A program made the position numbers and the translations under genes. From positions 1 through 27,435 of the forward strand of contig JALGWK010000011.1 in the NCBI GenBank assembly GCA_025774205.1: 27,435 bases of DNA, written 5' to 3'. Below the pieces are notes generated by a model. That model did not search any database. It had not been told where the DNA came from and saw only the letters and a program-made list of their open reading frames with translations. The stretch comes from a bacterium. Its GTDB lineage: Bacteria; Blakebacterota; Blakebacteria; Blakebacterales; Blakebacteraceae. Below, one piece after another: positions 936 through 23,137 of this stretch. Each line of letters opens with the position of its first letter. The stretch's first letter is position 1.

Positions 936-2870
936 TCACCGACGCATCGTGACAGTCTCGATTGGAACTTCTCGTTGTTTCAGTGACCGGTGACAGGTGG
1001 AGCAGTCGTCCAGAGCCTTCTGATCAGGCTTCTCCGCCTCATCCCGGTGGCACGGGATACAGTTCTCATGCATGGCCTCCATATAACTCACCGCCAGCGC
1101 AAGATCGCTGTCCTGGTCGGCAGGTTCCTCCCACCTGGCGTCTTCCCGATGGCATTCGAGGCACGGTTTGGCGCTCTCGGCTGATTTCGCTTCCCCGGCA
1201 GGGTGGCAGACCCCACAGGAATGATTCGAAGGATATATCCCTCCGAGCTGCTCGCTTTCAGCGACAGCCAGGGTGTGCTCGCCGTGATCGAATATGCGGG
1301 TCGACTGCACCATCTGACGGTGACATCGGAAGCAGGCTGTCGTCTCATCGCCGGGAAGAGACATATGGTGGCATTGTCGGCAGGAGGTATCCCCTCCCAG
1401 CCTTTCCCGATGATCGGCGTGAGGAAAGTCGGTCTTCACGCCGGTAGTGTTACCGTTGATACAGAGTACCGTTCGGGTGACATCCAGTCCGAGAGCCGGC
1501 TCCACCTCCAATGCATCAATCCGTGCATACGATGGGTACATGAGGCTCCAGGCGAGAGGGATCATGATCACCGCGATCACCGTCGCCCGTTCCAGTCCGC
1601 TGCTCAGGGCGGTGTTCCAGACCAGGGAGAAGGAGTCGAATTTGGCCTTGAAGATCCCCATGTCTGCCCGGCGGGTCTTCCACTCTTCATCGAAGACACT
1701 GAAATTCTCGACGATGACGAGGAAGGTCAGCCCGGCAGCCGCGATGACCCCGGCTGAAAGTGCCCACTCGGCAAGAGAGGGGAAGTAGACTTCTCCCGCA
1801 CTCCTGAAGTAGCCGAAGATGCCGACATCCATCCGGTTGAGGAACAGTCCCGAGCAGGCGGAGATCGCCGCCAGGCCGAGGGCGGTCGGGGAGCGACGGG
1901 TCTGTGGGTTCCAGACCAGGAAGAGGGGGAGTCCCACAAGCAGCGCCATCTCCAGGCCGAAAAGCCAGCTCTCCCAGGTGCCGGCAGCCAGGACCCGCCA
2001 CGATCCATCGACGAGCAGCCGGGCGACCTGGATGACCCCGAAAGCCCCCAGGATCGACGTGGCGATGGACGCGAGACTGACCAGCATGGGCAGGTCTCTA
2101 CCGGTCGGTCGTTCCTTCCCGTTTCCGTTCGAGCCTCCCCCCATCGGTACGATCGCGATCGCTTCTTCCGACTTCGGTCCGAAGACCGATTCCCGATCGT
2201 ACAGGCGGGCATAGACGATCTTGATCAGCACCATGAACATCAATCCCGCCCCGGCGGCCGAAATGATGAAGAAGAGCGGCAGCAGGGAGGAGTACCAGAG
2301 CGGGTGGAGCCGCTGCGGTGTCACCAGGAAGAGCGAACCGAGTGAAGAGTGGTGCAGAGATGAGAGCGAAATGCCGACCACCACGACACCGAAGGCGATC
2401 CGGTGCAGAAAGGCCACCACCCGCTCGGCACGCAGTTTTTCGAACAGGGTCGGTCCCAGTTCGATAGCCGTGATCGTGAAGTAGAGAGATACGCACCAGA
2501 AGACCTCGAACAGGAACGAATGCTCGTTCCACATGAGGAAGGGGTGCCAGAAGCGGAACGGAAGGCCGATATCGAAGAGAAGTGCCAGACATGAGCACCC
2601 GTACCCCAGAAAGGCCACCAGAATGGCCGGTTTCATGAGGGGACGGAATCTCTCCAGCTTGAGGACATAGACCAGAAAACCGACCATGAATCCACTGGTT
2701 GAGATTGCCACTCCGGCGACCATGTTGAAGATCTTCCAGAGTCCCCACGGTACCGCGTCACTGAGGTTGGTCGTCGCTCCGAGTCCGAACCAGAGGCGGA
2801 ACACTCCTGCCACCAGCCCGGCCAGGGCGAACACCCAGAGGAGATCCTTCAAAGCCCGGGTCCGGCGCAT
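936..2870 (-). CDS. NrfD/HmcC/DsrP-like membrane subunit fused to a C-terminal hexahaem cytochrome c domain
   Basis: This 644-residue protein begins with about ten hydrophobic helices (roughly residues 10-390) resembling the NrfD/PsrC/HybB quinone-interacting family. A further helix follows near 430-450 (VIAVIMIPLAWSLMYP), then a hydrophilic tail with six CXXCH haem-c motifs: CRQCH 497, CFRCH 513, CGVCH 552, CLECH 570, CIPCH 604 and CSTCH 623. The last helix would place the haem tail in the periplasm. In Hmc and Dsr complexes the NrfD-type subunit and the multihaem cytochrome (HmcA, DsrJ) are separate proteins; here they appear fused. It is the last gene of a four-gene operon, and its start codon overlaps the previous stop as TGATG. 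Inferred role: electron exchange between periplasmic haems and the quinone pool or the cytoplasmic iron-sulfur subunits. The electron donor is unknown. Confidence 0.88.
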   Translation of the reverse strand: MRRTRALKDLLWVFALAGLVAGVFRLWFGLGATTNLSDAVPWGLWKIFNMVAGVAISTSGFMVGFLVYVLKLERFRPLMKPAILVAFLGYGCSCLALLFDIGLPFRFWHPFLMWNEHSFLFEVFWCVSLYFTITAIELGPTLFEKLRAERVVAFLHRIAFGVVVVGISLSSLHHSSLGSLFLVTPQRLHPLWYSSLLPLFFIISAAGAGLMFMVLIKIVYARLYDRESVFGPKSEEAIAIVPMGGGSNGNGKERPTGRDLPMLVSLASIATSILGAFGVIQVARLLVDGSWRVLAAGTWESWLFGLEMALLVGLPLFLVWNPQTRRSPTALGLAAISACSGLFLNRMDVGIFGYFRSAGEVYFPSLAEWALSAGVIAAAGLTFLVIVENFSVFDEEWKTRRADMGIFKAKFDSFSLVWNTALSSGLERATVIAVIMIPLAWSLMYPSYARIDALEVEPALGLDVTRTVLCINGNTTGVKTDFPHADHRERLGGDTSCRQCHHMSLPGDETTACFRCHRQMVQSTRIFDHGEHTLAVAESEQLGGIYPSNHSCGVCHPAGEAKSAESAKPCLECHREDARWEEPADQDSDLALAVSYMEAMHENCIPCHRDEAEKPDQKALDDCSTCHRSLKQREVPIETVTMRR

Positions 2871-3664
2871 CAGGCACTCTCCTCTCCGGCACGATCAGGT
2901 GTTCCTGATCCACCCGGTCCGTCAGTCTCGTCCTGCAGGTTCATCCGTCGCCGGATGATCCAGTTCACCCCCAGGAGACCGCTCGCGACACCCAGACCGA
3001 TGAACGGCGTTTTCGAGATCAGGGGTTCTGTGAGCGAGGGGACTGATCCGGCACCGCGAGGGGGCCAGCCGATAGAACTCAGATCAACATCGGAGAGGTA
3101 GAGAAGCGAAGTTCCTCCATACTCACTCTCTCCCCAGACACGCGGCAGGTACACCGTCCGATGCGAGGCAATGAGCCCGTGTGCCTCATCCAGGAGGGCA
3201 TCCCTGTCCCCGAACCGGAGGGCGTCATTCGGACAGGCCTCCACACACGCCGGAGGGATCCCCTCCTGCACCCTCTCGAAGCACATCGTGCACTTCCTCA
3301 CGAAGGGGGTCGTCTCCTGCCACTCATACCGCGGGATGGAGAAGGGACAGGCCAGCATGCAGTATCGGCACCCGATACACTTGTCGGGATCGTAGATGAC
3401 GGGTCCTTCAGGTGTTTTCGTGAGCCCGCCTACAAGGCAGGCCGACACACAACTGGGCTCCAGGCAGTGCATGCAGCTCTTGCGGGCGAATCGGCCCTCA
3501 CCGATCTGCACCAGGCTCAGCAGACGGTTCTCCGACAGGCCGTCCCACGTGACGGCCCGGTCCACATGGGCTTGTACCGGGTCACTATCGTTCTCGGCGA
3601 TGCAGGCCTCTACACAGCGTTCACATCCGGTGCATTTCGTAACGTCGACCAGGATCGCTTTCAT
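2870..3664 (-). CDS. Ferredoxin-like electron transfer subunit with four [4Fe-4S] clusters (HmcB/HybA/DsrO-like)
   Basis: This 264-residue protein has sixteen cysteines in four groups: 11/14/17/21, 64/67/72/76, 96/99/102/106 and 125/128/140/144. That is the pattern of four-cluster ferredoxin subunits of the DmsB/NrfC/HybA/HmcB group that pair with NrfD-type membrane proteins. One hydrophobic helix near residues 220-238 (IGLGVASGLLGVNWII) followed by arginines suggests a C-terminal membrane anchor. The first cysteine group begins at residue 11 and there is no twin-arginine signal peptide, unlike DsrO and many HybA proteins. The clusters are therefore predicted to lie on the cytoplasmic side (inference). 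Start and stop overlap both neighbours as TGATG, which indicates translational coupling. Within the complex it would connect the NrfD-like subunit to the HdrD-like protein. Confidence 0.88.
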   Translation of the reverse strand: MKAILVDVTKCTGCERCVEACIAENDSDPVQAHVDRAVTWDGLSENRLLSLVQIGEGRFARKSCMHCLEPSCVSACLVGGLTKTPEGPVIYDPDKCIGCRYCMLACPFSIPRYEWQETTPFVRKCTMCFERVQEGIPPACVEACPNDALRFGDRDALLDEAHGLIASHRTVYLPRVWGESEYGGTSLLYLSDVDLSSIGWPPRGAGSVPSLTEPLISKTPFIGLGVASGLLGVNWIIRRRMNLQDETDGPGGSGTPDRAGEESA

Positions 3665-4362
3665 CAGATGCGCACCTCCTCACCATAAAGCGCTTCGGCT
3701 ACCCTGTCGCCGGCCCCGGGCCGGAGCTGCCAGTGCACCGCCGAGATCCTGTCGAAGAAGAAGAGGACCACATGAGCCAGTTTGGTGGCGGGGATCATGA
3801 GGAAGAGTACCTCTGCGCTCAGGATGTGGGTCAGCATCATCACGTCCCAGGGGAGAGGATTGAGCGCGGGATGCATGGCGAGATAACCGGACACGAAGGG
3901 CAGCAGTACGAGTACCAGCAGGATGTAGTCCACCGGTCCGCTCACCGTGCGGTGGCGGGCCCGAAAGGTCCGGTAGGCCAGCAGGAGCAGGCTGCAGGCA
4001 ATGGTAAGCAGTGTCAGGATGTCCGCTGTACCCTTGCTGACAGCCGGAAGATCCAGTCCGAGGAATCGTTCCCATCTGACCACGTGGTCGAGAAGGAACA
4101 GGGGCACGACGATCACGCCGATATGCATCAGAAAGGAGGCGATCGAGAATATCTTCGTGCCCGGTTCGATATGCCGGACCGGTATGACCCAGCTCAGGGA
4201 CTCCCTGACCATCGCCATCCAGGGCACATCCTTGAGACGCCGACCTTTCTTCACCAACAGGTGATACACCTGCAGGAACACCAGGCGGAAGAGACCGGCG
4301 ATCATGATCCCGAACGTGAAGGCGAAAAGGGGTCCCTTCGCGAAGTCCAGCCAGGCTTCCAT
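3664..4362 (-). CDS. Membrane cytochrome b subunit, DsrM/HmcE/TmcC-like (NarI-related)
   Basis: This 232-residue protein has about five hydrophobic helices and histidines placed as in the NarI-like cytochrome b subunits of Dsr, Hmc and Tmc complexes. Candidate haem-b ligands include His80, His93, His179 and His197; assigning exact pairs would need an alignment. The ribosome site GGAGCAAGGTA lies directly before the ATG at 4362. The stop codon overlaps the ferredoxin-like gene's start. In DsrM/DsrK and HmcE/HmcF pairs this type of subunit anchors the HdrD-like protein to the membrane and exchanges electrons with menaquinol. The same pairing is seen here, since the HdrD-like gene lies 33 bp upstream. 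Confidence 0.87.
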   Translation of the reverse strand: MEAWLDFAKGPLFAFTFGIMIAGLFRLVFLQVYHLLVKKGRRLKDVPWMAMVRESLSWVIPVRHIEPGTKIFSIASFLMHIGVIVVPLFLLDHVVRWERFLGLDLPAVSKGTADILTLLTIACSLLLLAYRTFRARHRTVSGPVDYILLVLVLLPFVSGYLAMHPALNPLPWDVMMLTHILSAEVLFLMIPATKLAHVVLFFFDRISAVHWQLRPGAGDRVAEALYGEEVRI

Positions 4363-4395: not shown

Positions 4396-5835
4396 TCAGA
4401 TGGTGAAGAGATCCGCCCGTTCTTTCCGCTCCATGGGACTGATCCCGCCCGGGATCACGATGGACTGGAGGATGAGATCGTGGAGTCCCGCCACCCTGCA
4501 GGGGATATCGTAATACTCCACCAGCTCCTTGAGCTGTTTCTTGCAGTTGGCGCAGGGCGCGACCACGATCTCGGCTCCTGTCTGACGGAGTTGCTCCGCT
4601 TTCATCCTTCCGGCGATATCCATCCGGAACTCGTGGATCTCGTCGACCGATACAAGACCGCCACCTCCACCACAGCAGAGATTGTCCGATCCCCTGGGGG
4701 TCATCTCGACGAAATCCGGGACAAAGCTGCGCAGGATCTCCCGGGGCTGTTCCACGATCCAGCCCGACCGGGCGATATTGCATGGGTCGTGGTAGGTGAC
4801 CCGCTCGGTTATGACATCAGGATCAAGGGTGATCTTCCCCTTCCTCAGGCAGTCGAGGGTATACTCCATGAAATTCAGCACCGGCGGGGCCTTGCTCCCC
4901 ATGAAGGTCGGAATGAAATCGTGTGCGGCGCGTGAGGCGTGTCCGCACTCACCGATAAGGATGTTGCGGCCACGCAGTCGGTCGACTTCCGACACCAGCT
5001 GTTTGATGATGTTCTCAAGGTGCCAGTCGCTGTAGAAGAGACCGTAATTGATCCCGTCATAGTTGCAGAGTCCGATGGTCCACCTGTCCCAGTCCCCGGA
5101 AGCGTAGAGTACGGCGGCGTTCCCCATGAGGGTGTCGGGCTCCATCAGGTAATCACTGACGGCACAGAAGAAGACGTAATCCCGGTCCTCCCTGTCGGTC
5201 GGGAATTCCAGCTCCACCCCGAGCATCTCCTCCATCTCTTCGGCCAGGAACTCCAGGACATCCAGCAGACCCGCCCGCGGGACTTTCGAAGTGTTATGAG
5301 TCTCCCCTTCGAGCTGTTCCTGAACACTGACCTGCAATGCCTTGGGTACGATGTCCACCAGACTGAGCACATACCGTCCGAGCCGGGTGATGAGACCGTG
5401 ATCGAATCCAAGAGGACACACCCTGGTGCAGCGCCTGCAGGCAGTGCATCGGTAGAAGATGTCCCCCATCTCAAAGATGATCTCTTCAGTCAGCTCGAAG
5501 GCGTTCGAGAAACGCGATTTCAACCAGCCGTCGAGCGTGAAGTACCGTTCGTAGATACCGAGCAGGAGGTTCGTACGGTAACAGGGGATATCCTTCGGGT
5601 CACCTGACGCCTGCAGGACGGGACACGCCACTGCACACCGGTTGCACTTTGTGTTGGACCTGCGGTATGAATCGAGAAGTGGTTTGTAATCTGTAAACTC
5701 AAGAACGCGCCCGAATGCCTCAAGGAAACGATCAACAAGATCATCACCGGGGTGTTTCATGAGGTGATAGGGCAGTGTCCTTCTCGATGGGGAATCGATC
5801 GTCTCGATACCGGGTACCGCAGTCGTGGTATCCAT
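4396..5835 (-). CDS. HdrD/DsrK/HmcF-like iron-sulfur protein with CCG domain
   Basis: This 479-residue soluble subunit is first in the operon. The second cluster motif is canonical (C130, C133, C136, C140, then Pro). The first is unusual: C64, C67, C71-Pro with a later C85, instead of four closely spaced cysteines. The C-terminal half carries the HdrB/HdrD-type CCG signature, with HDPC, then CC followed by five glycines, then CANC, in order. That domain binds a non-cubane [4Fe-4S] cluster in heterodisulfide reductases, where disulfides are reduced. By analogy with DsrK and HmcF it is a cytoplasmic subunit acting on a thiol/disulfide carrier or partner protein. The start at 5835 is supported by AAGGA nine bases upstream and by a sigma-54-type promoter about 40 bp upstream. 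Confidence 0.88.
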   Translation of the reverse strand: MDTTTAVPGIETIDSPSRRTLPYHLMKHPGDDLVDRFLEAFGRVLEFTDYKPLLDSYRRSNTKCNRCAVACPVLQASGDPKDIPCYRTNLLLGIYERYFTLDGWLKSRFSNAFELTEEIIFEMGDIFYRCTACRRCTRVCPLGFDHGLITRLGRYVLSLVDIVPKALQVSVQEQLEGETHNTSKVPRAGLLDVLEFLAEEMEEMLGVELEFPTDREDRDYVFFCAVSDYLMEPDTLMGNAAVLYASGDWDRWTIGLCNYDGINYGLFYSDWHLENIIKQLVSEVDRLRGRNILIGECGHASRAAHDFIPTFMGSKAPPVLNFMEYTLDCLRKGKITLDPDVITERVTYHDPCNIARSGWIVEQPREILRSFVPDFVEMTPRGSDNLCCGGGGGLVSVDEIHEFRMDIAGRMKAEQLRQTGAEIVVAPCANCKKQLKELVEYYDIPCRVAGLHDLILQSIVIPGGISPMERKERADLFTI

Positions 5836-5875
5836 ACTGTGATCCTTGTTGCACGTTTAGTTGAACAGATGCACA

Positions 5876-5891
5876 TGCAAAGACCGTACCA
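5876..5891 (-). promoter_or_regulatory. Sigma-54 (-24/-12) promoter for the Hmc/Dsr-like operon
   Basis: Read on the minus strand, the site is TGGTACGGTCTTTGCA. It matches the sigma-54 consensus TGGCACG-N4-TTGCW at every fixed position except one (T for C at position 4), with the exact GG-to-GC spacing. The predicted start is near 5865, giving a 5' leader of about 30 nt that contains the AAGGA ribosome site before the ATG at 5835. A sigma-54 activator gene lies in the divergent operon. Confidence 0.72.
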
Positions 5892-6039
5892 ATTCCGCAA
5901 TTCGGTTCGTAGACGATCGTGCGGACACCGGCACGGATCCCCGATTCAGGTAGAAGTACCATGTTTTATGCTGATCGGCGACAGGTCGGTATAAAGCCGG
6001 GCAGGGGATTCCGAGAGTCAGATTCGACACATGAGTGCC

Positions 6040-6087
6040 GTTGCATGCGTTGCAACAGTTCGATGCAGTGCAACAGTGCGTGCAACA
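6040..6087. promoter_or_regulatory. Putative shared enhancer (UAS): TGCAAC repeat cluster
   Basis: The hexamer TGCAAC occurs at 6051, 6069 and 6081, each followed by A, and its inverse GTTGCA occurs at 6040, forming an inverted repeat with the first copy. Another inverse copy (TGTTGCA) lies at 5847, in the leader of the left operon. The cluster centre is about 200 bp from both predicted sigma-54 start sites (near 5865 and 6271). That is the usual distance for an NtrC-family enhancer acting by DNA looping. Binding by the activator at 7921-9228 is inferred. Confidence 0.5.
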
Positions 6088-6185
6088 CAATCAACACGCC
6101 CGGGCATCGATCAGAGCCGCTACCGGGTATGTGAGCAGTATGTCACGCGATCCCTTTACCCCTCTGTATAGGCACTGATTTTCTC

Positions 6186-6203
6186 GTCCTGAAACATCAG
6201 GAC
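6186..6203. promoter_or_regulatory. Perfect dyad GTCCTGA-N4-TCAGGAC upstream of the right-hand promoter
   Basis: The 18-bp sequence GTCCTGAAACATCAGGAC has 7-bp arms and a 4-bp centre. It lies about 40 bp upstream of the -24 element at 6245 and is not explained by any gene. It could be a second protein-binding site (repressor or accessory enhancer), or a hairpin in a read-through transcript. It is not flanked by a T-run, so a terminator is less likely. Confidence 0.35.
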
Positions 6204-6244
6204 CGCCGGCGAAATCCTTAAAGGGCAGGAGACGCCGGTCATAT

Positions 6245-6260
6245 CGGCATGGGAGTTGCT
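6245..6260 (+). promoter_or_regulatory. Sigma-54 (-24/-12) promoter for the NifX-DUF1847/Usp/activator operon
   Basis: The site CGGCATGGGAGTTGCT keeps GG at -24 and GC at -12 with the correct spacing and matches TGGCACG-N4-TTGCW at all but two fixed positions. The predicted start site near 6271 lies 25 nt before the ATG at 6296. This excludes the TTG at 6260 as the translation start. Confidence 0.7.
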
Positions 6261-6295
6261 TGGTAAATACATCGACCGATCACGAAGAGGCAGCC

Positions 6296-7273
6296 ATGAG
6301 ATATGGAATTCCCATACTCGCCGATCGAGTCGCCCCGCGAAGCACCTTTGCCGATTCGGTGCTTCTGGTGACCGTCAGGCACAGAAGGATCCTGAACCAG
6401 TCAGTCGTTCCGCTGGAAGGTACCACGTGGGCCGATCTGGTCCGGGTCCTCACAGATCAACAGGTCGATACGCTTGTATGCGGGGGTATCAGTCCGTCCA
6501 CCAGGGAGTCGATCCAGATCAGGGAGATCGAGGTGATCGACAACGTCACGGGCACCTCTGAACAGATCGTCGATGTATTGAGACGCGGGAATATCCATCC
6601 CGGATTCGGTTTCGTCATGGAAGAAGGCTCAGATACCGGCGCCCAATACCCACCCTCTGCTCAACGTCCATTGAATGCCGAGCGCATCGATGATCCGGTG
6701 AACTGCCTGGAGTGTGAAGACAGAAGATGTCTCAGGGGTGAGCAGTGTTCGCTTACGACGATCTACGACGGCCATGTCTCAGAGGCAGGTACACATGAGA
6801 TCCTCGAATCCGCCCTGGATGTGGCCTGCGAATATGAACGCACCCTCTGCCGGCTGGCTGAACTCGTCTACTTCAGCCTCGATATGGGCTACCGCCGTCT
6901 TGGTGTAGCGTACTGTACCGACCTGATGGAACCGGCTTCCATCCTCACCGGGGTGCTCCAGCGGTTCTTCGAAGTGTTCCCGGTCTGCTGCAAAGTGGGA
7001 GGGATACTCCTGGACCCATCCCAGGTACATGCCGGACCGGGCGGGGTATCTGCCGATCACACGGTCACAGGCTGTAATCCCTCGGGACAGGCGGCGATCC
7101 TGAACTCGCTCACGACCGATCTGAACGTCATCGTCGGTCTCTGTGTTGGTGCTGATTGCATTTTTACCAGAGAGAGCAACGCTCCCGTCACCACGATCTT
7201 CGTGAAGGACAAGTCTCTGGCGAATAATCCGATCGGTGCCGTCTACTCGCACTATTACCTGGAGGATATCTGA
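6296..7273 (+). CDS. NifX-like (Fe-Mo cofactor) domain fused to DUF1847 metal-binding domain
   Basis: The 325-residue protein starts at ATG 6296, preceded by AGAGG. Residues about 1-105 look like the NifB/NifX/VnfX-type dinitrogenase iron-molybdenum cofactor domain (MRYGIPIL near the start, VCGGIS at 61-66, followed by an (EQ)IVDVLRRG helix). The rest fits DUF1847, a family of uncharacterised metal-binding proteins. It contains a cysteine cluster C137, C140, C145, C151, then GVAYCTDL, VCCKVGG, TGCNPSGQA, GLCVGADC and a final TTIFVKDKSLANNP stretch, all conserved features of that family. No nitrogenase genes are present, so the NifX-like part more likely binds another metal-sulfur species. It is the first gene of the right-hand sigma-54 operon. 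The biochemical role is unknown; a cytoplasmic metal or sulfur binding/sensing role is inference. Confidence 0.82.
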   Translation: MRYGIPILADRVAPRSTFADSVLLVTVRHRRILNQSVVPLEGTTWADLVRVLTDQQVDTLVCGGISPSTRESIQIREIEVIDNVTGTSEQIVDVLRRGNIHPGFGFVMEEGSDTGAQYPPSAQRPLNAERIDDPVNCLECEDRRCLRGEQCSLTTIYDGHVSEAGTHEILESALDVACEYERTLCRLAELVYFSLDMGYRRLGVAYCTDLMEPASILTGVLQRFFEVFPVCCKVGGILLDPSQVHAGPGGVSADHTVTGCNPSGQAAILNSLTTDLNVIVGLCVGADCIFTRESNAPVTTIFVKDKSLANNPIGAVYSHYYLEDI

Positions 7274-7337: not shown

Positions 7338-7874
7338 ATGGCTACCCCGACTCTCAACGCAGTCGGATTCTGCGCCCACTACTCTGAAGAGGGTGATCGC
7401 GCTTTCGAATATGCGCTGAATCTGACAATACGACACAGGATTCAGCTGAACGTATTTCACTTTCTGGCCGATCCCTTCGTCCTCGGCGATGATCCACCCC
7501 GGGATCTCACACGGGCCGAACTCGACCGACTGGTTATGGATCGGGAACGGGAGTTGAGGATGTACTATGACGAGCGCGCGGGGGACTATCTCGAAGTAGG
7601 CTTCCGGCTCTGCCAGGACAACGAATGGACCGAGTTGCACCGATGTCTCCTGGTTCGTGAATTCCAGATACTGGTGCTCGGGTATGCCGGTCCCGATACG
7701 ATCTTTGCAGGGAGGCCCATCGAAGAATTCGCTTATGGATTCGTTGCTCCCATCGTCCTGGTCGGTCCGGAGGGTCCATACCAGTATCACCTGAACAGCC
7801 AGGCGGCACTGATAATCGACAAACTGGGGATCCCCGATGGTTGTTGGACAAAGATCGAGCCTGTGACAAGTTAA
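7338..7874 (+). CDS. UspA-like universal stress domain protein
   Basis: The 178-residue protein starts at ATG 7338 behind a strong AAAGGAGG site. The N-terminal half (AVGFCAHYSE, then an AFEYALNLT helix and LNVFHFL strand) resembles the alternating strand-helix start of universal stress proteins. The C-terminal part (EFQILVLGYAG, then a VAPIVLVGP strand) corresponds to the last strands. The glycine-rich ATP-binding loop of canonical UspA is not clearly present, so nucleotide binding is doubtful. The gene lies 64 bp after the NifX-DUF1847 gene and 46 bp before the sigma-54 activator, so it is probably part of the same operon. A role as a cytoplasmic signalling or stress partner is inferred from context only. 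Confidence 0.68.
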   Translation: MATPTLNAVGFCAHYSEEGDRAFEYALNLTIRHRIQLNVFHFLADPFVLGDDPPRDLTRAELDRLVMDRERELRMYYDERAGDYLEVGFRLCQDNEWTELHRCLLVREFQILVLGYAGPDTIFAGRPIEEFAYGFVAPIVLVGPEGPYQYHLNSQAALIIDKLGIPDGCWTKIEPVTS

Positions 7875-7920: not shown

Positions 7921-9228
7921 ATGGAAGAAGTCAGCGAACTGATCTTTCAGAGCATCAGTGATGGTGTGTTCACCGTGAACGAGAACCGTATCATAACCTC
8001 GTTCAACCGGGCAGCTGAGGAGATCACCGGGTTCAGTGCCGGTGAGGCTGTCGGCAAGCATTGCTTCGACATCTTCCGCACCGAGGTATGCCACACGCGA
8101 TGCGCCCTGAAGGATACCCTCCAGCATCATGATCCGGTTGAAAATGCCCGGGTAAACATCATCACCCGTCAGGGACATGAGCTTCCCATCAGCGTGACGA
8201 CAACCCTGCTGAAAGATGACGGCGGCGGAGTGGTCGGAGCCGTTGAGTTCTTCCGGGACCTCTCGGATATCGAGCACCTGGAGCGGCGCCTCGATGAACG
8301 ACGGGCCATCGACGATATCGTCAGTGTGAATCGGGAGATGCAGAAACTGGTGCAGCTCCTGCCCGACGTCGCCAAGTCGGAGTGCAGCGTTCTGATTGAA
8401 GGGCCGAGCGGGTCGGGCAAGGAACTCGTTGCCCAGGTGATCCACAACCTCAGCCCCCGCAAGTACGGGCCGTACATCAAACTGAACTGCGCGGCCCTGC
8501 CGGCATCCCTGCTCGAATCAGAGCTGTTCGGTTACGTCAAGGGCGCCTTCACTGACGCGAAGCGGGACAAGCCCGGACAGTTCTGCCTCGCGAACGGGGG
8601 TACACTGCTTCTCGACGAGATCAGTGAGATGGACGTATCACTGCAGGTGAAACTCCTCCGGGTTCTGAACAACGGTGAGTATCGTCCTCTCGGATCGACG
8701 AAGACAATGCATACCGACGCCCGCATCCTTGCCGCCACCAACGCGGACCTCCGGAAATGCATCGAATCAGGAACCTTTCGGGAAGACCTCTACTTCAGGA
8801 TCAACGTCGTCGAGTTGCGGATCCCGTCTTTGCGGGACCGGCCCAATGATATTCCGATCCTGGCAGACTTCTTTCTTCGGAAGTTCCAGGGGAAAACAGG
8901 CAAACCGATCGAGCGATTGTCACCCGAGGCCATAGCGTCGCTCAGGAAATATCATTTCCCCGGGAATGTGCGTGAGCTCGAGAATGCTGTCGAACATGCC
9001 TTCGTCATGTGTCACGGTGAGGAGATACTGCCCGGACACCTCCCGCTGGCCATCACCAGGGAAAGTGAGGGAGTGAACGGAGTAACACCGGGAAAGCAAC
9101 ATGAGGAGGATGTCATCGTCGAAACCCTGCGCCGCAATCGGGGCAATCGAACACTTGCCGCAAAGGAACTCGGCATCCACCGATCCACCCTGTGGCGCAA
9201 GATGAAGACCTACGGGCTGGACACCTGA
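7921..9228 (+). CDS. Sigma-54-dependent transcriptional activator (PAS-AAA+-Fis)
   Basis: The 435-residue protein has an N-terminal PAS domain (about 5-115), an AAA+ sigma-54 interaction domain (about 133-360) and a Fis-type helix-turn-helix at the end (about 395-433; TLAAKELGIHRSTLWRKM). The ATPase carries Walker A GPSGSGKE (161-168), Walker B GGTLLLDE and the arginine-containing FREDLYFRINV stretch. The sigma-54-contacting loop reads GAFTDA (208-213) in place of GAFTGA. Ahead of it there is no phosphoreceiver domain, so the signal probably comes through the PAS domain. The PAS contains Cys48, Cys57 and Cys61, the last two as CHTRC, which could bind a cofactor or sense thiol redox state (inference). 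Two sigma-54 promoters in the same locus are its likely targets, including the promoter of its own operon. Confidence 0.93.
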   Translation: MEEVSELIFQSISDGVFTVNENRIITSFNRAAEEITGFSAGEAVGKHCFDIFRTEVCHTRCALKDTLQHHDPVENARVNIITRQGHELPISVTTTLLKDDGGGVVGAVEFFRDLSDIEHLERRLDERRAIDDIVSVNREMQKLVQLLPDVAKSECSVLIEGPSGSGKELVAQVIHNLSPRKYGPYIKLNCAALPASLLESELFGYVKGAFTDAKRDKPGQFCLANGGTLLLDEISEMDVSLQVKLLRVLNNGEYRPLGSTKTMHTDARILAATNADLRKCIESGTFREDLYFRINVVELRIPSLRDRPNDIPILADFFLRKFQGKTGKPIERLSPEAIASLRKYHFPGNVRELENAVEHAFVMCHGEEILPGHLPLAITRESEGVNGVTPGKQHEEDVIVETLRRNRGNRTLAAKELGIHRSTLWRKMKTYGLDT

Positions 9229-9279: not shown

Positions 9280-10002
9280 ATGAAACGCTGGCACTGGAAC
9301 TATGTAATAGACGCCGGCATGTTCCTCTCCATGATGGCGCTGGCCGGTATCGGCCTGCTCCTGAAATACAGACTTCTACCCGGTCGTGATGCCCGCTTGA
9401 AATACGGTCTGCAGGTCGATCTGGCTTTTCTGGGGCTCGACCGGCACCAGTGGGCGACGATCCACTTCATCATATCGCTCGTTCTGCTGTCCCTGTTGCT
9501 GCTGCACATCATCCTGCACTGGTCGATGATCATCACGCTCTACCGTCGTTTCGTGCCTGCCGGACGTATCCGCGCAACCGTTACTTCCACGTTCATTTTT
9601 TCATCGATCGTCATGGCGGGTTTTCCGCTCATCGCCAGGCCGGAGTTGCAGGAACTGGAACCATTGAGAAGATCCACCCACGAAGAGTCCGCGATGACCG
9701 GCGCGATCGATACGCTGAGCAGCGGCAGATCGAATCAGCGCCGGTTGGCGGAGGCTCCGACCGATACGCACCTCAGCGGTGAGAGTGAGCACACCCTCGA
9801 TATCCGGGGATCGATGTCGCTGCAGCAGGTTGCAGACACGTATCAGGTACCCGCAGCGCATATCCTTGAAGGATTGGGTATCACAGAACGGAACGCCGCC
9901 CGGGAACGTCTGGGACAGTTGCGGAGGAGCTACGCTTTCACCATGAGTGACATCGAAGACATCATCAAGCGCTACTGGCAGGAACATCCTCCTCCAGAAT
10001 GA
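9280..10002 (+). CDS. DUF4405-type membrane protein with C-terminal helical domain
   Basis: The 240-residue protein has three to four hydrophobic helices in its first 120 residues, with histidines (HWNY near the start, HQWATIHF, LLLLHIILHW) placed like haem-b ligands in the cytochrome-b-like DUF4405 family. A low-complexity linker (about 125-165) leads to a soluble domain of about 75 residues. It begins DIRGSMSLQQVADTY and ends in a YAFTMSDIEDIIKRY helix, and resembles a small helical module found at the end of some DUF4405 and iron-sulfur membrane proteins. It is 51 bp downstream of the activator gene and is probably the last gene of the sigma-54 operon. It may be a membrane redox partner for the complex encoded divergently; this is context-based inference. 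Confidence 0.72.
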   Translation: MKRWHWNYVIDAGMFLSMMALAGIGLLLKYRLLPGRDARLKYGLQVDLAFLGLDRHQWATIHFIISLVLLSLLLLHIILHWSMIITLYRRFVPAGRIRATVTSTFIFSSIVMAGFPLIARPELQELEPLRRSTHEESAMTGAIDTLSSGRSNQRRLAEAPTDTHLSGESEHTLDIRGSMSLQQVADTYQVPAAHILEGLGITERNAARERLGQLRRSYAFTMSDIEDIIKRYWQEHPPPE

Positions 10003-10753: not shown

Positions 10754-12139
10754 TCAGGGGATCCGCGCGACAAGCAGGGTCAGATCGTCCTGCTGACCTG
10801 ACCCTTCCGTAAAGGACATGAGGTCATCGAGGATCGCCTCCCGGACCGATCCGGCCGACTCGCCGGCCATGCTGCTCACGACCTTGATCACCCTCTCCTC
10901 ACCATACATTTCGCCGTTCCGATTCTCCGCTTCATCCAATCCGTCAGAATAGAACACCAGCAGATCGCCGCTTCTGAGCTGCAACTCGCTCTGCGAATAG
11001 CGGCTCGTGATGAAAGCGCCCAATAGAGGTCCGCCCAGATCCAGTCGCTCAATGAGCGGGGGACCTGATTCGTTCGGGCGCAGAAGTATCGGCGCCGGAT
11101 GTCCGGCATTCAGATATTCCAGGGTGCTGTTCTCTGGATCGTAGATGGCCCATACAAAGGTGATGAATCGGTCGATCGGGGTCCGGGCAAAGAGATCCCG
11201 GTTCAGGCGCGAGATGCGATCCGAGAGTCTGTCCGGGCCGGGATCCAGATCGATAGCATGCACCGAGCCATGCAGTGATGCCATGATGATGGCCGCTGGC
11301 ATGCCTTTACCGGATACATCACCGAGCATGAGATTGATTCTTCCGTCCTCCATCACAAAGACATCGTAATAATCACCCGCTACCCCCTGGGCGGGTTCGA
11401 ACTCTGCCGAGATCTCGAGGTCGCTTACAGCCGGGAGTTCGTCAGGAAGCAGTTCACGCTGCACCAGACCGGCGAGTGCCAGTTGCTGTTCGAGTTCCTG
11501 CCCTTTCAGATAACTCTTCAGGCGCAGGATCACCGTGGAAATTGAGATCAGGAGAGCGAAGGCGGCGGCGACACTGATCACCAGGTTCCGTCTAAGGGGA
11601 GCATACGCGTCGGATACTCCGGCAGATCGAAGAGCGATCTGCGCTATCAGGAATCGGGGGCTGCCGGAACCTGCTCCCGCATCCGGAGGCCCCAGCTGTC
11701 CCCGGTCGACTCTGAATCTGAAGGGGGTGGTTGCGATCAGACGTTCCGATCCATCATCCGTGATTCTCTGTATGACCGCCTGTTCGCTACTCACAAGGAT
11801 GCTGTCGATGATGCTCCGGCTTATGGTACGCGGATCTGATGTGCCGGCGAACGCAACCGGCTCTCCCTGCTGGTCGAAGATACCGACATAGGCCAGCTGC
11901 GGCGTATTGCTCTCGAAAAAGACCTCGAGGATATCCTGCAATTCATCGGCGTCCGCCGGTTCCAGCGTTCGGACCATATTCTGGATCTCGGTGATGTGAT
12001 CCCCGGCTCGCTGCCCGAGATATGAAGTAAGGAGCTGTTCAGAGACATATCGATAGGAGAGGAACGTCCGAACGAACAGAAGCAGACCGAGGGCGAACCC
12101 GATGCCAAGGGCCAGTCTCAGCCACATACCCTTTTTCAA
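10754..12139 (-). CDS. Membrane-anchored PP2C-type serine phosphatase (RsbU/SpoIIE family)
   Basis: The 461-residue protein has a first transmembrane helix near 7-24, an extracytoplasmic sensor region to about 185, a second helix near 186-206, a short coiled stretch, then a SpoIIE/PP2C phosphatase domain. Metal-binding motifs are GDYYDV (255-260), GDVSGKG (273-279), NAGHPAP, FYSDGLDE and QQDDLTLL. Proteins of this design dephosphorylate anti-sigma-factor antagonists in partner-switching pathways; no antagonist or kinase gene is adjacent. Translation most likely starts at TTG 12139, with GGAG six bases before it; the ATG at 12127 is the alternative. It follows the terminator of the ferritin-like gene and so probably has its own promoter. 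Confidence 0.9.
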   Translation of the reverse strand: MKKGMWLRLALGIGFALGLLLFVRTFLSYRYVSEQLLTSYLGQRAGDHITEIQNMVRTLEPADADELQDILEVFFESNTPQLAYVGIFDQQGEPVAFAGTSDPRTISRSIIDSILVSSEQAVIQRITDDGSERLIATTPFRFRVDRGQLGPPDAGAGSGSPRFLIAQIALRSAGVSDAYAPLRRNLVISVAAAFALLISISTVILRLKSYLKGQELEQQLALAGLVQRELLPDELPAVSDLEISAEFEPAQGVAGDYYDVFVMEDGRINLMLGDVSGKGMPAAIIMASLHGSVHAIDLDPGPDRLSDRISRLNRDLFARTPIDRFITFVWAIYDPENSTLEYLNAGHPAPILLRPNESGPPLIERLDLGGPLLGAFITSRYSQSELQLRSGDLLVFYSDGLDEAENRNGEMYGEERVIKVVSSMAGESAGSVREAILDDLMSFTEGSGQQDDLTLLVARIP

Positions 12140-12948: not shown

Positions 12949-14172
12949 TCACTCGCTGCTCAGAGCCTCGATCGGGTCGAGGAGAGAGGCGCGATAGGCA
13001 GGGTAGGCTCCGAAGAACACACCTACTATGAGGGAAAACCCGAAGGCGAGGATCATCGAGACCGGCTCGATCTGAACGACCCAGTCGGTGACCATACTCA
13101 GGATCACCGTTCCTGACAGGCCGAGGAATATGCCCGCGAGCCCGCCCCCGGTGCCGAGCATGACGGCTTCGGTGAGGAACTGGGTCCGCACGTCACGACG
13201 CCGGGCTCCCACCGCCAGCCGCAGGCCGATCTCACGGGTCCGCTCACGCACCGACATGAGCATGATGGCAAGGATGCCGACTCCCCCGACAAGGAGCGAG
13301 ATGGTCGCAATGCCGGCAACCAGGGTGGTGAAGGTGTCTCCGATCTCTCGATGAGCGGCCATGAGTTCGCTCTGGGTCTGGATCTCGAAATCGTCCTCGG
13401 CGGCTGATCGATCAAGGCGGTGTCGCTCCCTCAACAGCCAGCGGACCTGCTCGGCGGCCTCATCCATCTCAGGGCCGGATCGGGACCGCAGAAATATCCC
13501 CCCCAGCCACTCCTGGTTGAAGAGACGGCGAAGGGAAGTGCGCAGGGGGACCATGACCAGATCGTCCTGGTCGGTACCCGAGAGATCCGCCCCCCGGGGA
13601 CGCAGAATTCCGATCACCTCGAAGGGAACCTGACCGATAAGGATCCTGTGGCCGGTCGCCGGCTCCTCTCCGAAGAGGGCCCGCGCAACGGTCGGCCCCA
13701 GCACTGCTGTCCGACCTGCCGTGAGTTCCTCACGCTCGGTGTAGAAGCTGCCCGCGGCGGTATCGAGATTGAGAATGTCGAGTACCTCGGGCGTGATGCC
13801 CTGGATCGTGGTGGTGGAGGAGAGCCCTTCGTATTTGACCGGCATCCGCTTACTGGCCCACGGCGCAACGGCGATCACCTCGGAGATGTCATCGCGGATC
13901 GCCTCGGCGTCCTGCGGCGTGAGAGTGGTCACGGTACCCCGGACCTGCATGCGGCCCGCTGAAGTACGGATCTGAGCGGGGGTGACCATGATGAGATCGG
14001 TGCCCATCGATTCGATGCTGGCCATCACGTTCTGACGAGCTCCATACCCTACCGCCACCACGGTGATCACCGAGGAGACGCCGATGACGATCCCCAGCAG
14101 TGCCAGTGCGGTCCGGGTCCGGTGGACGGTGAGTTGCCGGACGGAGATGCGCAGGCCACGGATCACCTTCAC
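12949..14172 (-). CDS. MacB-like ABC transporter permease (intact copy)
   Basis: This 407-residue permease has an N-terminal helix (TALALLGIVIGVSSVITV), a large extracytoplasmic MacB core domain and three C-terminal helices of the FtsX-like domain (ISLLVGGVGILAIMLM, then SVRERTREIGLRLAVGAR, a signature of this family). It ends with the typical LDPIEALSSE. There is no fused ATPase, so it would use the ABC ATPase at 15440-16186. The start is GTG at 14172; no better start lies in frame. It is the last gene of the efflux operon and follows a broken paralogue. MacB-type transporters work with a periplasmic adaptor and TolC to export peptides, lipoproteins, macrolides or siderophores; the substrate here is unknown. 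Confidence 0.9.
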   Translation of the reverse strand: MKVIRGLRISVRQLTVHRTRTALALLGIVIGVSSVITVVAVGYGARQNVMASIESMGTDLIMVTPAQIRTSAGRMQVRGTVTTLTPQDAEAIRDDISEVIAVAPWASKRMPVKYEGLSSTTTIQGITPEVLDILNLDTAAGSFYTEREELTAGRTAVLGPTVARALFGEEPATGHRILIGQVPFEVIGILRPRGADLSGTDQDDLVMVPLRTSLRRLFNQEWLGGIFLRSRSGPEMDEAAEQVRWLLRERHRLDRSAAEDDFEIQTQSELMAAHREIGDTFTTLVAGIATISLLVGGVGILAIMLMSVRERTREIGLRLAVGARRRDVRTQFLTEAVMLGTGGGLAGIFLGLSGTVILSMVTDWVVQIEPVSMILAFGFSLIVGVFFGAYPAYRASLLDPIEALSSE

Positions 14173-14199
14173 GGAGCCATATCCTCTTCATGACGGGGT

Positions 14200-14220
14200 G
14201 TCGGGGACCTGTGCCCCGAC
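14200..14220. other. Perfect stem-loop between the two permease genes
   Basis: GTCGGGG (14200-14206) and CCCCGAC (14214-14220) form a 7-bp stem with a 7-nt loop in the 73-bp gap between the two permease genes. No U-tract follows, so it may stabilise or partly terminate the operon transcript. Confidence 0.35.
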
Positions 14221-14245
14221 GCAGAGTTTCTTCCTCCGGCGATCC

Positions 14246-15443
14246 TCATGATCGAAGGGCGTCGACCGGGGGCATGGCGGCGGCTTTCCGGGCGGGGTGG
14301 AGCCCGGCAGTGAGACCCACTCCGGTGGAGAAGAGGAGGCCGGCGGCAAGGACATGCCAGGTCATAAGAGCCGGAGTGCCGGTGAAACGCTCAAGCAGGA
14401 TATTGACCACCAGGCCCAGCAATAATCCAGCGATCCCTCCGAGAAAGGTCACTCCGGCGGACTCAAGCAGGAACTGTCCCCGGATGTCACCGGAACTGGC
14501 CCCCACTGCCCGACGCAGGCCGATCTCGCGGCGCCGTTCACTCACCGAGAGCAGCATGATATTGGCTACCACCACCCCTCCCACGATCAGGGCGATGCCG
14601 GAAACAAGGATGAGGAACAGGTTGAAGGTTCCCTGCATCTCCTCGACCATCGCGGTGACTTCAGTGGGTGTCGTGATGCGGAAATCATCAGGAACGCCCG
14701 ATCCCGTGCCGTGCCGTTCCCTCAGCAGGATCTCGATGTCGGTGGCCGTTTCCTCCATCTCCCGCACGTCGCGGACCTGGACCCTGATTCCGGAGAGGTA
14801 GTCCACATTGGCGACCCGACGCATATAGGTGCTCAGGGGTACGAAGATCCGGTTGTCCATGTCGCCCCCGCCGGCGCTGGTACCCTTTTCAGCCATGATC
14901 CCCACGATCTCGAAGGGAGAGTTCCCGTACGACCGTGGGACCTATGGCGGCGATCCTCGAATTGCTTTCAACATCCTGCTGGGTGATGAAGGAACCGACT
15001 CCTACCGGCCAGTCCCACACATCGACCCATTCGGGAGTGACTCCGAACATCGGGGAGGCGAAATTCCGATCACGCCACTGTGCTTCACTCTGCCCGCTGC
15101 GGGCGAAAGGTGCTGCCAGGCGGATGCCCTGGATCTCAGTGTAGACAGCCTCGGCATCTTCGAGTTTGAGGGTGGCTGTTACCTCTGATCCCGAGCCCGA
15201 GCCCGACCCCGACCCCGGAACGCTGCGTACCTGGTCTGTGGCTCCGCCGGCCCAGATCATGATGTTCTCGAGCCCGAATACCCGAACCCGCTCCATGATC
15301 CGTTCCCGGGCGCCCATCCCGGCGGAGAGCACCGTGGTGAGGACCGTTATGCCCACCATGATCCCGGCCATCATGAAGAAAGTGCGGAGCCGGTTGCGAT
15401 TCAGCCCTCGCGCGGCCTGACCGATCATTCTTGAAGTTTTCAT
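14246..15443 (-). pseudogene. MacB-like ABC transporter permease, broken by an internal deletion/frameshift
   Basis: Two overlapping reading frames make up one permease. The N-terminal part (15443-14889) has the first helix and most of the MacB core domain up to IGPTVVREL. The C-terminal part (14905-14246) resumes in another frame with PFEIVGIMAEKG and continues through the three C-terminal helices to DALRS. In the intact paralogue at 12949-14172 the matching stretch is GPTVARAL, then sixteen residues, then PFEVIGIL. Here a single nucleotide stands in place of those sixteen codons, so about 47 bp appear to be deleted. The start overlaps the ATPase stop (ATGA), showing it was once coupled. Either a real lesion that leaves only the downstream permease, or an assembly error. 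A GS-repeat is present in the N-terminal part. Confidence 0.82.
15187..15216. repeat. Hexanucleotide tandem repeat encoding a Gly-Ser run
   Basis: Five in-frame units of the form GANCCC (gatccc, gagccc twice, gacccc twice) encode a glycine-serine run (GSGSGSGSGS) in the extracytoplasmic domain of the broken permease. Units of six can change in number without shifting the frame, so length variation between strains is possible. Confidence 0.55.
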
Positions 15444-16186
15444 CCGTCCACCTCCGGAGCAGGCGGGATGTCTGAGATCACTTCAGCAGTCCCCTGTCCT
15501 GATCTGGGCTCATCAGACGCGATCTGCCCATCCTGCATGGTGATGATCCGACCGGCATGGGCGGCGATCTCGCGTTCATGGGTAACGACCACGACCGTGC
15601 GGCCCCGGTTATTCAATTCGGTAAAAAGCGCCATGATCTCGTCACTCGAGGTCGTATCCAGGTTGCCCGTCGGCTCGTCAGCGAAGAGGATCTCCGGGTC
15701 ATTCACGATGGCCCGGGCGATGGCGACCCGCTGCTGCTGTCCACCTGACAGTTCCCCGGGATGATGGCTGAACCGGTCGGTCGGGAACCCCACGTCTTCG
15801 AGGGCTGCCCGGGCGGGTCCGGCCAGATCGGACCGATCGGTGTAGAGCAGGGGCAGCTCCACGTTCTCAAGGGCCGAAGTGCGGGAGAGGAGATTGAAAC
15901 TCTGGAACACGAAACCCACTTTCCGGCTGCGGATCTCCGCCAGGGCATCATCGTCGAGCTGGCTTACTTCCGCGCTGTCCAGAACCACGCTGCCTGAGGT
16001 AGGGCGATCCAGGCAGCCCAGCAGGTTCATGAGCGTACTCTTCCCTGACCCTGAGGCTCCCACTATCGCGACGAATTCACCGCGCTCGATATCGAGACTC
16101 ACACCGCGCAGGGCTGCAACCCCCACGGTGCCTTCCTTCTGAAATGCCCGGGTCAGATCCCGGGCCTGGATCAATGGCTGCTGCAT
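15440..16186 (-). CDS. MacB/LolD-type ABC transporter ATPase
   Basis: The protein has all the ABC motifs: Walker A GASGSGKST, Q-loop (VFQSFNLL), signature LSGGQQQRVAIARA, Walker B EILFADEPTGNLD and the switch histidine in VVVVTHE. It belongs to the MacB/LolD/FtsE group that powers FtsX-type permeases. ATG 16186 is chosen because GAGGAGT lies at the right distance; the in-frame ATG at 16201 overlaps the adaptor's stop codon but lacks a good site and would add five residues. The stop overlaps the start of the first permease. It would serve both permeases of the operon. Confidence 0.92.
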   Translation of the reverse strand: MQQPLIQARDLTRAFQKEGTVGVAALRGVSLDIERGEFVAIVGASGSGKSTLMNLLGCLDRPTSGSVVLDSAEVSQLDDDALAEIRSRKVGFVFQSFNLLSRTSALENVELPLLYTDRSDLAGPARAALEDVGFPTDRFSHHPGELSGGQQQRVAIARAIVNDPEILFADEPTGNLDTTSSDEIMALFTELNNRGRTVVVVTHEREIAAHAGRIITMQDGQIASDEPRSGQGTAEVISDIPPAPEVDG

Positions 16187-16197
16187 ACTCTCACTCC

Positions 16198-17250
16198 TCA
16201 TCGCTCAGGGAGTACGATGAGCTCGCCTTCGGTGAGCCCATCAGTGATCTCTGTCCAGCCGTCCTGGGTCCAGCCGATCTGTACCCGTCTGCGAACCGGC
16301 AGGCCGTCCTGCAGAACCGTAACGTAACGTTCCGAACGATCGCGACCTACCGCGGACGCAGGCACGGCTACCACATCGGGCCGCGGCTCGAGGACGATGG
16401 TGACCGCGGCGGTCATCTCGGGTCGCAGGGTAAAATCCCTGCGGTCGAGGATCTGGATGATGACCACGTAGTTCACCACATTGTCCTGGATCACGGCTTT
16501 CGGATATATGGCGGTGATCTCACCCTCGAAATCCTCGGCGGGATAACTGTCCACCGAGAACCGGGCCGGCTGTCCAAGGCGTATGCGGCCGATATCGGTC
16601 TCGTCGACATAGGCCTGAATTTCAAGACGCTCGAGGTCGATGATATTTACGAAGGTGGGGGCGGAGAAGCTGGCGGCTACCGTCTCCCCCTCCTGGGTGG
16701 CGACCGACGCCACGACCCCGCTGGTGGGCGCGGTAATACGCGTATAGGAGAGCTGGATGCTGGCCGATTCAAGATTGGCCTCAGCCTGCCGCACCTGTGC
16801 TTCTGCCACAGCCAGGGCGTATTCGGCAGTATCGACCTGCTGTCGGGATACGAACTCACGCTCGGCCATGGACGTCAGGCGATCAAGATTCAGACGGGCC
16901 AGTTCAGCCTCTGCTCGAGAGCGGGCCAGTGAGGCTTCGCTCTGGTCCACCCGGGCCTGGAACTCCGCGTCATCGATCTCGGCGATGATATCTCCGGCCC
17001 GCACATGGTCGCCGATGTTGGCCCGCAGACGGGTCACTACTCCCGAGACCCGGGAGCCGACCTTCACCTCGGCTCCAACCATGGGCCGTATCACACCCAT
17101 TGCCATGACGGTGGCGCTGATATCGCGGCGCCCGACTGTCTGGGTCCTCGTGGTCTGCTGATCGTCGCCTTCAGGTGTGCGCAGGGCGAGCCACCCGGCT
17201 GCCGCCAGGATCACCACCCCCGTAAGCACTGCCCAGCCCTTCTTTTTCAT
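16198..17250 (-). CDS. MacA/HlyD-like periplasmic adaptor (RND/MFP family)
   Basis: The 350-residue protein begins at ATG 17250, overlapping the TolC-like gene's stop as ATGA. One N-terminal membrane helix (residues 7-23) anchors it in the inner membrane. Then come a biotinyl-lipoyl half (SRVSGVVTRL, then GDHVRAGDIIAEID), a long helical hairpin (about 90-165) rich in Ala, Glu and Arg, the second lipoyl half (ITAPTSGVVAS, then QEGETV) and beta-barrel and membrane-proximal domains. It would link the MacB-type permease to the outer-membrane channel. A longer upstream reading frame exists but has no family similarity. Confidence 0.92.
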   Translation of the reverse strand: MKKKGWAVLTGVVILAAAGWLALRTPEGDDQQTTRTQTVGRRDISATVMAMGVIRPMVGAEVKVGSRVSGVVTRLRANIGDHVRAGDIIAEIDDAEFQARVDQSEASLARSRAEAELARLNLDRLTSMAEREFVSRQQVDTAEYALAVAEAQVRQAEANLESASIQLSYTRITAPTSGVVASVATQEGETVAASFSAPTFVNIIDLERLEIQAYVDETDIGRIRLGQPARFSVDSYPAEDFEGEITAIYPKAVIQDNVVNYVVIIQILDRRDFTLRPEMTAAVTIVLEPRPDVVAVPASAVGRDRSERYVTVLQDGLPVRRRVQIGWTQDGWTEITDGLTEGELIVLPER

Positions 17251-18587: not shown

Positions 18588-18619
18588 GATGGTATTCTCC
18601 AGTTCATGAACTTGGCTGT

Positions 18620-18745
18620 CTATAAGTACAGACACCACGGTTGACGGTTCCATGTGATGGCAGCTGCCACGATCGGTGATATCAATGGAAGATCAGGATA
18701 CATTCTGCCCGTGATGGTTGCTGATGCTTGCTGGAGCTGTCTCAT
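18620..18745 (-). CDS. Possible 41-residue leader ORF in the efflux operon's 5' leader
   Basis: Between the predicted promoter (start near 18772) and the TolC-like gene lies a small frame beginning at ATG 18745, with AGGAAAG eight bases upstream. It ends 32 bp before the preferred GTG start. The peptide contains two tryptophans near its end but has no recognisable homologue or membrane segment. It may be a translated leader or chance. Confidence 0.2.
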   Translation of the reverse strand: MRQLQQASATITGRMYPDLPLISPIVAAAITWNRQPWCLYL

Positions 18746-21963: not shown

Positions 21964-22012
21964 TGCCCTATCACGAAATAACCGTGGCATGACACTACTG
22001 GGAGGATTCAAG

Positions 22013-23056: not shown

Positions 23057-23137
23057 AAGGTTCCCGGAATCACATCCGACCGGCACCCGGTCGGTCGGGT
23101 GGACGATCCGGGAGAGTGATGGAAAGAGAGCCAATCA

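Follow-up and report, generated by a model that had tools for sequence, protein, structure and literature searches.

A putative two-way sigma-54 control region shared by a membrane redox operon and a NifX-DUF1847 operon in an uncultured anaerobic bacterium

Two divergent operons and their products

We analysed a 27.4 kb stretch of DNA (the window) from the genome of an uncultured anaerobic bacterium (G000), which, like the genomes compared with it, is a fragmented assembly (527 contigs, 85.85% complete, 4.84% contamination). Towards its left end lie two divergent gene sets, separated by a gap of 460 bp (5836-6295). The features that concern us are as follows:

936..2870, minus strand: NrfD/HmcC-like membrane protein with a multihaem cytochrome c domain fused to its C terminus (Pfam NrfD and Cytochrom_CIII; HmcC/HmcA matches)
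2870..3664, minus strand: HmcB/HybA-like ferredoxin subunit (profile matches)
3664..4362, minus strand: NarI-like membrane anchor, TmcC/HmcE-like (NCBIfam TmcC E=1e-33, HmcE E=4e-31, below cut-offs)
4396..5835, minus strand: CCG-domain iron-sulfur subunit, DsrK/HmcF/TmcB-like (Pfam CCG and Fer4_8; NCBIfam gives 263 bits for DsrK and 212 bits for HmcF, each short of the equivalog cut-off)
5876..5891, minus strand: predicted sigma-54 promoter, -24/-12 (TGGTACGGTCTTTGC), for the left redox operon; strict pattern match
6040..6086, no strand: putative shared enhancer, a 17-bp palindrome GTTGCA-N5-TGCAAC (6040-6056) plus TGCAAC at 6069-6074 and 6081-6086
6245..6260, plus strand: predicted sigma-54 promoter, -24/-12 (CGGCATGGGAGTTGC), for the right operon; strict pattern match
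6296..7273, plus strand: NifX-fold domain fused to DUF1847; eight cysteines of the DUF1847 region are invariant in the alignment
7338..7874, plus strand: Usp-like protein, a weak assignment (Pfam Usp E=0.11, under cut-off)
7921..9228, plus strand: PAS-AAA+-Fis enhancer-binding protein (EBP), OrpR-like, with CxxxC in the PAS domain, a GAFTDA loop in the AAA+ domain and a Fis-type HTH
9280..10002, plus strand: DUF4405 membrane protein, probably the last gene of the right operon

The left operon encodes subunits related to HmcF/DsrK, HmcE/TmcC, HmcB and HmcC, and in this it resembles complexes known from sulfate reducers (Hmc, Tmc, Qrc and DsrMKJOP). It differs from them in that every window subunit falls below the NCBIfam equivalog cut-offs for Hmc, Tmc and DsrMKJOP, and in the fusion of the NrfD-like subunit to the multihaem cytochrome.

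In the right operon, the N-terminal domain of NifX-DUF1847 has the NifX/ORP fold, matching ORP at Z 13.8 (2wfb; 100 residues aligned at rmsd 2.1) and NifX at Z 10.4 (9ian_F; 97 residues aligned at rmsd 2.4). The DUF1847 part carries a Cx2Cx4Cx5C motif and four more invariant cysteines, which make it a candidate metal or cluster binder. We claim no fold for this part, for which the model was weak (mean pLDDT 61) and the matches were generic Rossmann-like ones, including Dph2. For the whole protein, a role in cofactor handling or as a redox relay may be envisaged. The next gene had been called Usp in an earlier first-pass annotation; that family call is weak, but the gene stands as a conserved partner, since it also follows NifX-DUF1847 in two other loci (L098 and L099, 40-42% identity). 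The same annotation had placed an activator gene third in the right arm, and it is indeed found there, at 7921..9228. The order Usp-EBP-DUF4405 also occurs in the sister species (G001).

The promoter pair and the TGCAAC cluster

The two -24/-12 elements, reported in the first-pass annotation as exactly spaced and on opposite strands, are the only matches in the 27.4 kb window to a strict pattern (YGGYAYGNNNNTTGC, i.e. YGGYAYG-N4-TTGC; matched at 5877-5891 on the minus strand and 6245-6259 on the plus strand), where 0.05 would be expected and 0/100 shuffles reach 2. A loose pattern (2 mismatches) was not enriched in the window, with 21 found and 20.7 expected, and the weight therefore rests on the strict form and its conservation. 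Transcript starts near 5865 (left) and about 6270 (right) would be compatible with the positions of the boxes. A genome without rpoN had been named in advance as grounds for abandoning sigma-54 control, and a profile search found rpoN in the window genome (G000:C36, E=7e-62). No IHF-like site was found in the window spacer at ≤1 mismatch.

Midway between the boxes, GTTGCA/TGCAAC half-sites start at 6040, 6049, 6051, 6069 and 6081, with a sixth, at 5848, outside the cluster. Neither the half-site count nor the presence of five within 60 bp was reached by any of 5000 dinucleotide shuffles. The repeat cluster described earlier is thus real, but it does not consist of plain repeats: it is a 17-bp palindrome followed by two direct half-sites. 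The exact inverted repeat GTTGCA-N5-TGCAAC occurs at one place in the window genome and at one in the sister genome; an exact match in another genome (G002) was set aside as it sits within a 472-aa reading frame.

The homologous locus of the sister species (L032, G001:C154) keeps the gene order up to the contig limit, and its spacer has diverged in both sequence and length. Since a whole-spacer MAFFT alignment put the plus promoter in the wrong place, we used local alignment, in which three strong blocks remain: the minus promoter region (box TGGTACGGGCTTTGC, conserved), a 56-bp block over the TGCAAC cluster (E=2.6e-10) and the plus promoter (22/23 bases the same). Selection acting on the promoters and the TGCAAC cluster, and on hardly anything else in the gap, would be expected to leave such a footprint. 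The conservation that the first-pass annotation had called for in related loci is therefore present, with the boxes and repeats as the only strongly conserved spacer blocks.

A wide sample of 386 genomes yielded full-length NifX-DUF1847 fusions in 6 genomes (G000, G001, G026, G145, G146 and G260), of which G026, G145 and G146 belong to one phylum and G260 lies outside both that phylum and the phylum of the window. Eight NifX-DUF1847 loci were found, in three phylum-level lineages, and each has the fusion gene transcribed away from an electron-transfer operon across a spacer with one -24/-12 box for either side, so the divergent order anticipated for related genomes recurs. GTTGCA/TGCAAC was the top over-represented 6-mer when six spacers were pooled. 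Five of the eight spacers (the window, L032, L056, L098 and L138) have a clear TGCAAC cluster halfway between their two boxes; L099 has one weak palindrome, and the two spacers adjoining Hdr-type operons (L057 and L139) have no TGCAAC cluster.

The partner operon itself varies. In G260 it is a CCG-NarI-cytochrome operon. A Qrc-plus-Tmc set is found in G026 (C15), with scores over the cut-off for QrcB, QrcD and TmcD and just short of it for TmcB, and the operons in G146 (C8) and G145 are alike as far as read. An HdrA-type set is present at a second place in G026 (C145), with a similar layout in G146 (C21). The constant part is the CCG-domain subunit, the G145 contig stopping before that point. 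A sigma-54 module can, on this evidence, retain its control logic while its cargo is swapped.

These comparisons bear on two other explanations of the gap. Sigma-54 dependence might be confined to one arm, the other box being a relic and its operon being driven by another promoter; the plus box invites this, being the poorer match (CGGCAT against the consensus TGGCAC). However, it is this box that retains 22 of 23 bases in the sister species despite its diverged surroundings, boxes are paired in 8/8 spacers, and no sigma-70-like match lies within the gap, such matches being no commoner in the region than in shuffles. We regard dependence in one arm only as very unlikely. The arrangement could also be a matter of chance, with promoter-like and repeat-like sequence lacking any regulatory role, given that loose -24/-12 matches are common; the strict match statistics, the conservation of blocks and the recurrence in three lineages strongly disfavour this, and leave it hardly any probability.

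The dsrA gene exceeds the curated cut-off in the window genome (L132, G000:C450) and in its sister (L133, G001:C3), in a phylum-level orphan lineage, and on this basis both organisms probably reduce or oxidise sulfur compounds. Sulfate reduction was ruled out as a requirement of the module: dsrA is over the cut-off in G000 and G001 and not in G026 or G146.

The linked activator and its relatives

In a tree of 44 related EBPs, the window activator falls in a clade (clade A) with support of 100/99. Its closest relatives (clade A, at least 57% identity) are confined, among the 386 genomes, to the 6 that have the NifX-DUF1847 fusion, and the copy numbers match, two of each in G026 and G146 and one of each elsewhere; in G001 and G260 the two genes are on different contigs. 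Most other EBPs of the tree adjoin NifX-domain genes, as DVU2106 does in Desulfovibrio vulgaris; ORFs of ~290 aa are frequent there too, and those that were read (L099) encode P-loop ATPases. Another clade (L063, L116, L123 and L124) adjoins CCG-NarI-(FeS)-NrfD operons without NifX-DUF1847.

The CxxxC motif is present in at least 42 of the 44 EBPs. In OrpR, a [4Fe-4S] cluster bound by the PAS domain reportedly serves as the redox sensor. By analogy the window PAS domain, with its conserved CxxxC, probably responds to redox state as well; the module would then be on under reduced, anaerobic conditions. Because the tree was built without the DVU2106 sequence, the OrpR-like assignment rests on the domain architecture, on the neighbouring genes and on the GAFTDA loop also reported for DVU2106 (PMC4641369).

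Six clade-A activator genes have an upstream region of their own, and the TGCAAC counts there are 6, 5, 4, 3, 1 and 0, so that four of the six carry 3-6 half-sites. The density is 6.9 per kb in clade A, while 32 other related EBPs have 0.6 per kb (P=0.0007 by a Mann-Whitney test, uncorrected for relatedness). In L098, L099 and L056, a sigma-54-like box lies between most of the TGCAAC sites and the activator gene. Taken together, these patterns connect TGCAAC with the activator and speak for autoregulation. TGCAAC is not exclusive to clade A, as the clade-B locus L063 carries it too.

The gap is very probably a two-way sigma-54 control region, at which the linked activator would bind TGCAAC, open both promoters and regulate itself positively. 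Divergent sigma-54 promoters around one shared, autoregulated enhancer were what the first-pass annotation had proposed, and the boxes, the repeats and their recurrence over three phylum-level lineages support it. In outline, the activator made from the right operon would bind the TGCAAC cluster in the middle of the gap, and the DNA would loop to either side so that both promoters are opened. The left output, the membrane electron-transfer complex, would rise, as would the right output, comprising NifX-DUF1847, the Usp-like protein, the DUF4405 membrane protein and the activator itself, hence the positive feedback. The evidence for the control region is sequence throughout; it documents the two predicted promoters and the putative enhancer, all three of them conserved, together with the genes on either side and the presence of activator and NifX-DUF1847 in the same genomes, and from it we infer activator binding to TGCAAC, looping and redox sensing.

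A different EBP of the same genome could instead bind the enhancer, with the linked activator controlling something else. About 19 places in the window genome match the activator EBP, some over part of its length only, so another EBP could act at the gap, and one paralog (G000:C414) has as neighbours a NifX gene and a redox operon of similar make-up. Yet the TGCAAC clusters track the clade-A activator gene across lineages, the activator and NifX-DUF1847 are found in the same genomes in equal copy numbers, and the C414 paralog has distinct candidate sites of its own (GTTTCA/TGAAAC). We consider binding by a different EBP unlikely, and prefer the linked activator as the protein acting at TGCAAC.

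The cluster around this paralog (L060, G000:C414, 915-7588) has a counterpart in the sister species (L061, G001:C25, 5408-12288). In both, an OrpR-like EBP gene and a gene for a NifX protein without a fusion partner accompany a CCG-NarI-FeS-NrfD/cytochrome operon, all in one direction, and the palindromes between the EBP and NifX genes are GTTTCA/TGAAAC and not TGCAAC. The clade-B activators of L063, L123 and L124 face redox operons of a similar kind, and their candidate sites vary (L063 6400-6600, L123 2590-2810, L124 4270-4480), with TGCAAC in one and TGTCAC/GTGACA-type sites in others. Half-sites across the family resemble GTNNCA-TGNNAC and perhaps shift with the recognition helix.

Precedents and the place of NifX-DUF1847

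The first-pass annotation knew of no described system with this combination. That holds for the cargo but not for the regulatory design, which is already known, as the orp operons of Desulfovibrio vulgaris share the divergent sigma-54 layout: there, NifX/ORP-domain products come from a pair of divergent sigma-54 operons that have palindromic sites for an activator and a cognate EBP (PMC3897727, PMC4641369, PMC6345978). Like the orp locus of D. vulgaris Hildenborough (DVU2106/OrpR), the window has divergent sigma-54 operons with palindromic sites between them (the assignment of site to activator being inferred here), a one-component EBP encoded at the locus with the GAFTDA variant loop, and a NifX/ORP-domain product. 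Unlike it, the window has as its cargo an Hmc/DsrMK-like membrane complex, the NifX-DUF1847 fusion and a Usp-like protein, and a profile search of both arms found no Mrp/MinD-type P-loop ATPases, which in the orp operons occur along with ferredoxin-like Orp proteins. Its enhancer is TGCAAC, and the activator gene lies inside one of the two operons. The NifX domains differ too: that of the ORP system (NifX/Di-Nase) is marked by CXHFGHCE and CDH motifs, and the CXHFGHCE motif, the proposed cluster holder in MrpORP (PMC6345978), is absent from that of the window, where the motif region reads RVAPRSTFADS.

A second precedent is the ohcBAC operon of D. vulgaris with its divergent EBP, DVU3142 (PMC4641369). 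In both cases a sigma-54 EBP controls, or in the window would control, a membrane cytochrome/iron-sulfur electron-transfer complex; ohcBAC differs in being a single target operon with no NifX-DUF1847 and a different complex. New here are the TGCAAC site and the nature of the cargo, in which NifX-DUF1847 accompanies an Hmc/DsrMK-like, Qrc-Tmc or Hdr complex. In the literature searched, we found no description of this cargo, the TGCAAC site, the NifX-DUF1847 partner or the spread over three lineages. The locus offers a testable regulatory site and target set for probable redox-type activators in uncultured lineages outside Desulfovibrio.

We also considered that NifX-DUF1847 might serve CCG-domain (heterodisulfide-reductase-like) electron-transfer complexes as a dedicated partner, in their maturation or as a redox relay, with both under the control of an OrpR-like redox sensor. 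This reading draws on the fact that the type of complex varies (Hmc/DsrMK-like, Qrc-Tmc, HdrA-type) while the divergent sigma-54 pairing with the NifX-DUF1847 gene stays constant; we hold it tentatively, as possible and rather doubtful. No mention of DUF1847 was found in the literature searched, and the association ties this family of unknown function to CCG-domain electron-transfer complexes, which are central to anaerobic energy metabolism.

Elsewhere in the window, a SpoIIE-type phosphatase gene (10754-12139) is convergent with the right operon. Genes for MacB-type ABC efflux and its HlyD and TolC-like partners lie at 12949-18653 and 24132-26546, where the overlapping frames at 14246-14905 and 14889-15443 look like a single MacB gene split by a frameshift. 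A ZnuA-like binding protein and an ABC-3 permease (21989-23980) probably serve metal uptake.
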